Below, piece after piece: positions 4,096 to 4,913 of a stretch of 9,085 nt of DNA. Positions within the stretch are counted from its first letter, which is position 1; every line of letters begins with the position of its first letter. Under the pieces are notes generated by a model that saw nothing but the letters and a program-made list of their open reading frames with translations, did not search any database and was not told the DNA's origin. The stretch is from Candidatus Iainarchaeum sp. (GTDB lineage: Archaea > B1Sed10-29 > WALL01 > JAGHAM01). The stretch spans positions 1 to 9,085 of the forward strand of contig JAGHAM010000011.1 in the NCBI GenBank assembly GCA_021161465.1. Reading direction: 5' to 3'. The position numbers and the translations under genes are program-made.

Positions 4096-4142
4096 AGTTT
4101 CAACGTAATGTATGGGAAGTGCTCCCGTAGTCTAGTCCGGCC

Positions 4143-4308
4143 AGCCGCTGAATCGGCTGGTGCTTTAGGGTGGTCTGTTGACAACCCCTATTAAAGCACC
4201 ACTTCGAGTCTTGAGTACCTACGTGTTTAACCTAGCTGTTAAGCGCGTAAGTAACTATACTTTCAACCAGCTGGTACAGTTGAGCTAAACTTAACTGGCG
4301 GTCCGGAG
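4143..4308 (+). other. D-arm intron of tRNA-Glu (166 nt)
   Basis: CCGG (4137-4140) and CCGG (4303-4306) form the 4-bp central helix. The 3-nt bulges are CCA (4141-4143) and AGA (4307-4309), each cut after the second base. The inner helix starts at GCCGC (4144-4148) with GCGGT (4298-4302). The outer helix is weak, so this is a relaxed BHB. Inside is a strong hairpin GGTGCTTTA/TAAAGCACC (4159-4167 with 4192-4200). An alternative hairpin CCAGCCG/CGGCTGG (4141-4147 with 4154-4160) would compete with the BHB. It has no ORF worth reporting. Confidence 0.8.
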
Positions 4309-4326
4309 AAGGATAAGGGCCTTTCG

Positions 4327-4360
4327 AGGCTTTCCTTGATACCCAAGGGAGGCCAGGGAA
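4327..4360 (+). other. Anticodon-loop intron of tRNA-Glu (34 nt)
   Basis: This is the canonical 37/38 position. Central helix CTTT (4321-4324) with AGGG (4355-4358) includes two G-U pairs. Bulges are CGA (4325-4327) and AAA (4359-4361), each cut after the second base. The intron body is a continuous 11-bp helix (4328-4338 with 4344-4354, two G-U) with the 5-nt loop ATACC. Confidence 0.88.
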
Positions 4361-4381
4361 AGCCCTAGACCCGGGTTCAAA

Positions 4382-4446
4382 ATAAGGGAGGGTGACACAT
4401 TCTCCCTCCCCTTATAAGCCCTTCTCCTTTGGAAGAGCATGAACAG
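4382..4446 (+). other. T-loop intron of tRNA-Glu (65 nt)
   Basis: Position 59/60. GTTCA (4375-4379) pairs with TGAAC (4440-4444). Bulges AAA (4380-4382) and AGT (4445-4447), each cut after the second base, restore the loop TTCAAAT. Inside, AAGGGAGGG pairs with CCCTCCCCTT (around 4384-4412), and a second imperfect hairpin covers 4421-4437. If the first G of the central helix stays in the T-stem, the 3' bulge becomes 4 nt. Confidence 0.85.
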
Positions 4447-4542
4447 TCCCGGCGGGAGCACCATATGGAATTGCACGCGTTCTAGGCTAAACGTCTGGAC
4501 ACACCAGTGCAGAGAAGGTAGTCATAGTTGCTTGCAACAAGG

Positions 4543-4587: not shown

Positions 4588-4683
4588 GTGATAATATTCA
4601 TTTCGGATGGTGAAAAAAGGAAGAAGAAACACCAGTCTCGCTGGAAGTGGAGAAAGAAGCTCAGACGTAAGAAAAAGAAGTAA
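4588..4683 (+). CDS. rpl41e: Probable ribosomal protein eL41 (31 residues)
   Basis: GTG start, TAA stop. The C-terminal half reads SRWKWRKKLRRKKKK after KRKKKHQ, close to the RWKW-basic core of archaeal L41e, the smallest ribosomal protein, almost all Arg/Lys with the paired Trp. The start is preceded by GGTGAT (4579-4584) at 3 nt, identical in layout to the gene at 5908 (GGTGAT AAA ATG) and to ppsA. The first nine residues (VIIFISDGE) are not L41e-like, so the start may be wrong, but no other start codon is in frame. The stop is 1 nt before tRNA-Leu, implying a shared transcript. An overlapping ATG frame at 4606 runs into the tRNA and looks non-coding. Confidence 0.5.
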   Translation: MIIFISDGEKRKKKHQSRWKWRKKLRRKKKK

Positions 4684-4722
4684 TGCAGGGGTTCCGGAGC
4701 GGTCAAACGGGCAGGGTTTAGG

Positions 4723-4757
4723 TGGTTTTTCAGTCCTCATGACTGGAACCCGGAAAA
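4723..4757 (+). other. Anticodon-loop intron of tRNA-Leu (35 nt)
   Basis: Position 37/38. The intron folds through GGTTT/GAACC (4724-4728 with 4746-4750) and CAGTC/GACTG (4731-4735 with 4741-4745) with loop CTCAT. The central helix is imperfect (TTTA against GGAA, three pairs), so the BHB is relaxed. The boundary is set mainly by restoring a paired anticodon stem and a 7-nt loop. Confidence 0.8.
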
Positions 4758-4789
4758 ACCCTGTGGCTTAGTGCCTCCGCGAGTTCAAA

Positions 4790-4895
4790 AAGAAGGGTTG
4801 CACCCTCTCTACACCTGCATGGGTGGCACAAGGCCACCCAAAAGCCATAATGTAGGGGAGTATGGTGCACCTTAACTTTCATTTGGAAGTGAGAC
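4790..4895 (+). other. T-loop intron of tRNA-Leu (106 nt)
   Basis: Position 59/60, the same as in tRNA-Glu. The BHB is canonical: central helix TTCA (4784-4787) with TGAG (4890-4893), bulges AAA (4788-4790) and ACT (4894-4896), each cut after the second base; the flanking G4783-C4897 pair is the 53:61 pair. Inside are a helix of 4793-4804 with GGTGCACCTT (4864-4873), an imperfect helix around CTCTCTACA/TGTAGGGGAG, and a 7-bp hairpin GGGTGGC/GCCACCC (4821-4827 with 4833-4839). Confidence 0.88.
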
Positions 4896-4913
4896 TCTCG
4901 CCCCCTGCACCTC

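Follow-up and report, generated by a model that had tools for sequence, protein, structure and literature searches.

The question raised by this locus is whether segments of a tRNA-Glu that lie apart in the DNA form a working gene and, if so, where the sequences between them came from. We propose, with a probability of roughly 0.93, that they form a functional three-intron tRNA-Glu(UUC) gene, and that this gene is part of a genome-wide load of spread, T-loop-portable introns. The window, i.e. the whole 9,085 nt stretch of DNA analysed, is all of contig 13 of a fragmented MAG, whose 40 contigs span 976 kb at ~93% completeness. The PEP synthase has 62% identity with its counterpart in the Micrarchaeota MAG JALWQZ010000024.1, where a neighbouring 143-aa gene is also present, and we therefore refer to the host as micrarchaeote-like. 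In the nearest named record (L016) ppsA and the neighbouring 143-aa gene are likewise conserved, and a check of this record for synteny of the tRNA-Glu gene found no tRNA-Glu half.

A tRNA-Glu(UUC) gene with three introns

The raw unspliced window yields no tRNA with ARAGORN and no match with Rfam, as the first-pass annotation had anticipated of standard searches. Removal of three segments (Table 1), with the same lengths as first proposed from hand folding, leaves a 74 nt chain (GCTCCCGTAGTCTAGTCCGGCCAAGGATAAGGGCCTTTCGAGCCCTAGACCCGGGTTCAAATCCCGGCGGGAGCA; 75 nt with A73) in which all four stems pair to give a complete cloverleaf, and ARAGORN identifies this chain as tRNA-Glu(ttc). The exons thus form a full tRNA once the introns are removed, as in archaeal intron-containing tRNA genes. 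Together the putative introns account for 265 of the 339-343 nt of the gene (77-78%, against the 77% first estimated). The spliced chain is nearly identical to the intact tRNA-Glu genes of G006 (L065) and G008 (L067), which belong to the same order, and of G013 (L062), which belongs to the same class. The differences from these relatives are mostly in the acceptor and anticodon stems, and are paired and compensatory, with both sides altered.

The match was compared with chance in an intron-tolerant alignment to 430 kb of the genome, for which the queries were one intact tRNA-Glu and the intact tRNAs from two relatives; introns of 10-260 nt were permitted, each at a fixed penalty. The tRNA-Glu locus scores 70, with exactly the three introns described above. 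In the controls, consisting of the same 430 kb reversed and three random versions from a dinucleotide (Markov) model, the same query reaches 11.5-14 and the maximum for any query is 25, and the match at the locus is therefore not a chance one. Taken with the spliced cloverleaf and the intact relatives, the alignment score supports the initial reading of a tRNA-Glu(UUC) with three BHB-type introns, and the comparisons confirm 4121-4459 as a real gene of this predicted structure. No Rfam families were found within its introns, and the longest of them, intron 1, has neither an Rfam match nor an ORF of 80 aa.

Table 1. Predicted features of the interrupted tRNA-Glu(UUC) gene and of the adjacent region (window positions).
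Feature	Positions	Strand	Description
Exon 1	4121-4142	+	Acceptor 5' strand, D-stem 5' strand, D-loop to ~position 20a
Intron 1	4143-4308	+	D-loop, 166 nt; module C at start
Exon 2	4309-4326	+	D-stem 3' strand, anticodon stem 5' strand, anticodon UUC to base 37
Intron 2	4327-4360	+	Canonical 37/38, 34 nt, strict BHB
Exon 3	4361-4381	+	Anticodon stem 3' strand, variable region, T-stem 5' strand, T-loop 54-59
Intron 3	4382-4446	+	T-loop 59/60, 65 nt, family A element
Exon 4	4447-4459	+	T60, T-stem 3' strand, acceptor 3' strand; encoded ACCA next
Possible element copy	4464-4540		3' of tRNA-Glu
Short basic ORF	4588-4683		Between the two tRNA genes
tRNA-Leu(UAG)	4685-4909	+	Exons 4685-4722, 4758-4789, 4896-4909

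Splice junctions and splicing enzymes

Bulge-helix-bulge (BHB) geometry had been assigned to all three junctions, but it is strict at 37/38 only. Here the outer helix has 5 bp, all Watson-Crick (AGGGC:GCCCT, 4316-4320:4362-4366), the central helix 4 bp including two G-U pairs (CTTT:AGGG, 4321-4324:4355-4358) and the inner helix 11 bp, and the bulges are CGA and AAA. The D and T junctions are each relaxed on one side, as in the known class of relaxed BHB motifs. At the D junction CCGG:CCGG forms a 4 bp central helix and GCCGC:GCGGT a 5 bp inner helix, the 3-nt bulges being CCA and AGA; this junction is relaxed on the outer side because 3 nt (AGT) part the D-stem helix from the central helix. 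At the T junction the 5 bp T-stem serves as the outer helix and the central helix is TTCA:TGAA, in which the TGAA at the 3' end of intron 3 pairs with the T-loop; two stem-loops take the place of one direct inner helix, and the bulges are AAA on the 5' side and the 4-nt CAGT on the 3' side. The predicted cuts fall after the second bulge base, as first described, at five of the six positions; the exception is the 3' cut of the T junction, which would follow the third base.

We infer that the gene is transcribed as a single pre-tRNA of ~340 nt, from which the archaeal splicing endonuclease would excise the three introns at BHB or relaxed motifs, and that RtcB would join the exons. One RtcB gene is present in the genome and one splicing endonuclease gene was found, on contig 16. 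The ~170-aa endonuclease aligns end to end with Methanocaldococcus jannaschii 1A79 and has no inserted CSL or ASL loop, and is predicted to be alpha4-like with a single alpha subunit. Searches of the 93% complete assembly found no gene for a second endonuclease subunit and no three-unit epsilon endonuclease. Efficient removal of relaxed introns is reported only for enzymes of the (alpha beta)2 and epsilon2 types, as a rule carrying a CSL or ASL (PMC6379350, PMC12397907), and it counts against our explanation that the only endonuclease found is alpha4-like and lacks both loops, yet the D and T junctions are relaxed. Either the alpha4-like enzyme is broader in its action, or the assembly lacks a subunit, or motifs that look relaxed fold adequately. 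The system also offers a direct test of whether relaxed introns truly need endonucleases bearing CSL or ASL.

Interruption of tRNA genes throughout the genome

The Rfam tRNA model finds eight matches at E 0.001 or better in the whole genome, with seven above the cut-off; in a joint search with stricter filters there are six, compared with 29 in a genome of the same family and usually 20-40 elsewhere. We traced tRNA genes with introns allowed on 12 contigs with Rfam tRNA matches plus the window contig (430 kb, 44% of the genome) and at loci returned by the searches, a partial census chosen for tRNA content. All 39 of the genes traced are interrupted (26 traced at first, then nine others from those contigs and another four from contigs 4, 6, 28 and 39), and the tRNA-Glu(UUC) gene is thus typical of its genome as judged from the predicted structures. 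The introns total ~73, a count made in part by eye for genes that extend past contig ends. ARAGORN recognises a tRNA after intron removal in 36 cases, and the other three, two tRNA-Thr genes cut by contig ends and a tRNA-Ala(CGC), were read by eye without ARAGORN confirmation. Standard searches show this genome to be without most of its tRNAs, which would skew the annotation and completeness estimates of similar genomes.

The tRNA-Lys(CUU) gene on contig 30 (L145, 89004-89255) has four introns, of 26, 19, 14 and 119 nt, and gives a clean cloverleaf; on inspection, the 19-nt intron at ~30/31 fits a strict BHB. In reviews the stated maximum is three introns per tRNA (PMC4033280, PMC8450103), and no published case of an archaeal tRNA with four was found in the literature searched.

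Contigs 5 (L163, 1-300) and 2 (L161, 1-300) both break off within an interrupted tRNA-Thr gene, and the repeat is almost the same in the two. The intron repeats probably fragment the assembly.

Intron families and pairing with the T-loop

BLAST comparison among the introns places intron 3 of tRNA-Glu in a family (A) of nine T-loop introns, and groups family B T-loop introns together with introns that have module C, including the D-loop intron 1, in a second cluster. Modules repeated in other tRNAs are thus present in two of the tRNA-Glu introns. Module C, common to other tRNA introns, opens with GCCGCtgAATCGGC, followed later by GCTTT and a hairpin, and within the 430 kb is found solely inside tRNA introns. 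Intron 2 has its sole copy elsewhere in the paralogous tRNA-Glu(CUC) gene, whose exons are almost the same as those of tRNA-Glu(UUC) and whose introns 2 and 3 match its own at 85% and 95% identity. Searches with the family A and family B models find 16 and 30 places in the genome, respectively, and the long T-loop introns (~108-321 nt) are built from family A and B units repeated in tandem or nested. In tRNA-His, family B occupies the anticodon loop as well as the T-loop. The sharing of near-identical introns by different tRNA species within a genome is a pattern of the Thermoproteales type.

The T-loop introns end in TGRR followed by two or three further bases, a motif that is complementary to the T-loop TTCA. 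Pairing with TTCA is found in 25 of 29 T-loop introns, with a chance expectation of ~1 in 32 for each, although the copies are not independent. Scored against each gene's own base 57, pairing is found in 26 of the 29 (again related copies rather than independent events), the change being in tRNA-Gln, in which G57 is accompanied by the intron end CGAA. In G012, which belongs to a different family of the same class and has few detectable tRNAs (15), one near-identical T-loop intron is present in five tRNAs (L235, L240, L244, L247 and L250), apparently as a separate expansion, and these copies end in TGAA in A57 loops and in CGAA or CGGA in G57 loops. Because the 3' end of the intron covaries with base 57, the data support a functional role for the pairing. 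The T-loop families would be portable because their last four bases pair with the near-universal T-loop TTCR: the intron would bring TGRR, or CGRA where base 57 is G, and any tRNA T-loop would supply the other half of the splicing motif.

Elements of these families also occur in other genomes. In G007 a family A-type element forms the 37/38 intron of tRNA-Glu(UUC) (L215) and the anticodon intron of tRNA-Asp (L183), and in G010 the anticodon intron of tRNA-Ser (L182); family B is present in tRNAs of G001 and G012. Free-standing two-hairpin elements resembling the introns lie directly 3' of tRNA genes on contigs 16, 21, 28 and 35 of the present genome and, similarly, in G007 (L187) and G011 (L233, L242), and G005 has similar elements away from tRNAs.

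Possible routes of intron spread

The intron families appear to have spread to the T-, anticodon and D-loops of essentially all tRNA genes, by a route that we infer from the distribution of the copies. A broader proposal, held tentatively and at somewhat less than even odds, is that they represent a self-spreading class of Micrarchaeota introns, with ends that pair with the universal T-loop, which has invaded all tRNA genes of one genome, moves among the anticodon loop, the T-loop and the tRNA 3' flank across genera, and is processed by an alpha4 enzyme without the loops. Recognisable copies at different sites across genera provide a direct test of tRNA intron movement.

Spread at the RNA level, by reverse splicing of an excised intron into a different pre-tRNA followed by reverse transcription and recombination into the genome, is conceivable but on balance doubtful: it accounts for the insertions being mainly limited to splice-competent loops, and for an element that occupies 37/38 in relatives being found at 59/60 here, but it does not predict free-standing copies outside tRNAs. 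Such copies, which lie 3' of tRNA genes in G007, G011 and the present genome and apart from any tRNA in G005, do favour spread as DNA transposable elements, in which gene-less short hairpins are moved in trans, perhaps by an IS200/IS605-like or other transposase, and RNA excision is a by-product of the insertion site. The tandem or nested copies and the two-stem-loop organisation of both families, with their ends fixed at TTCAAA/T (a likeness to IS200/IS605 in layout only), are also in keeping with this, but we consider it unlikely, since the tRNA loops hold most copies found in the genome, the covariation of the 3' end with base 57 is directly explained by splicing, and no viral contigs were found to contain the intron cores with an exact core pattern. 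Gene conversion or duplication between tRNA genes, without mobility, is less probable still; the two tRNA-Glu genes with their common introns are as it would expect, but for unrelated tRNAs it is already disfavoured, with the same families present in these at differing loop positions. That the locus is a pseudogene, a dead tRNA-Glu copy with accumulated repeats in a cell using another tRNA-Glu, would suit the high intron load and the repeats at junctions but is highly improbable, as neither of the signs of it named in the first-pass annotation was seen: the whole-genome tRNA searches with Rfam find no intact tRNA-Glu in the ~93% complete assembly, every stem is intact with compensatory differences from relatives, and every other traced tRNA gene is interrupted likewise. 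As the MAG is fragmented and ~7% incomplete, the assembly may have missed an uninterrupted tRNA-Glu or another endonuclease subunit. For a functional tRNA-Glu(UUC), introns that are suggested to spread from tRNA to tRNA would have to be removed by splicing for protein synthesis.

Relationship to other archaeal tRNA introns

Three-intron tRNA-Glu(UUC), intron transposition and tRNA sets that are 92-95% interrupted are already known. Pyrobaculum calidifontis has a three-intron pre-tRNA-Glu(UUC) (PMC4390854) and 71 introns in 46 tRNA genes (PMC4390854, PMC4033280, PMC8450103), and transposition of tRNA introns is known in Thermoproteales (PMC4033280). By published descriptions, the present genome resembles these in the three introns of tRNA-Glu(UUC), the non-canonical positions and the similar introns across tRNAs; it differs in being a micrarchaeote-like DPANN genome in which every traced tRNA is interrupted, one with four introns, in its compound T-loop introns of up to ~320 nt, and in an endonuclease that is alpha4-like rather than (alpha beta)2 with CSL.

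The initial view was that three-intron tRNAs are known but rare outside Thermoproteales; multi-intron tRNAs are now also described in ARMAN lineages (PMC4033280) and in soil Asgard archaea (PMC11291895). In the latter (Atabeyarchaeia and Freyarchaeia) 92-95% of tRNA genes are described as interrupted, more than half with multiple introns, often at non-canonical sites (PMC11291895). The near-wholesale interruption, several introns per gene and non-canonical sites are alike by description, in what is another phylum. ARMAN-1 and ARMAN-2 (Micrarchaeum), probably the nearest well-studied relatives, also have multi-intron tRNAs, but their endonuclease is of the epsilon2 type (PMC4033280, PMC12397907) and the one here is a single ~170-residue alpha unit without ASL.

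As far as the cited literature shows, what is new is a micrarchaeote-like host with all traced tRNAs interrupted and four introns in one tRNA, as well as T-loop-complementary, covarying intron ends alongside an alpha4-like endonuclease. These findings extend wholesale tRNA interruption to another archaeal lineage, and exceed the stated maximum of three introns.

Neighbouring features

The tRNA-Leu(UAG) gene downstream in the window has two predicted introns, one of 35 nt at 37/38 and one of 106 nt and family B type in the T-loop. It begins two bases past the short basic ORF (VIIFISDGEKRKKKHQSRWKWRKKLRRKKKK), which resembles ribosomal protein eL41 by composition only. In the segment immediately 3' of tRNA-Glu, the sequence TTGCACGCGTTCTAG recurs within compound family B introns on contig 40, and this segment is possibly a decayed free-standing copy of the element.
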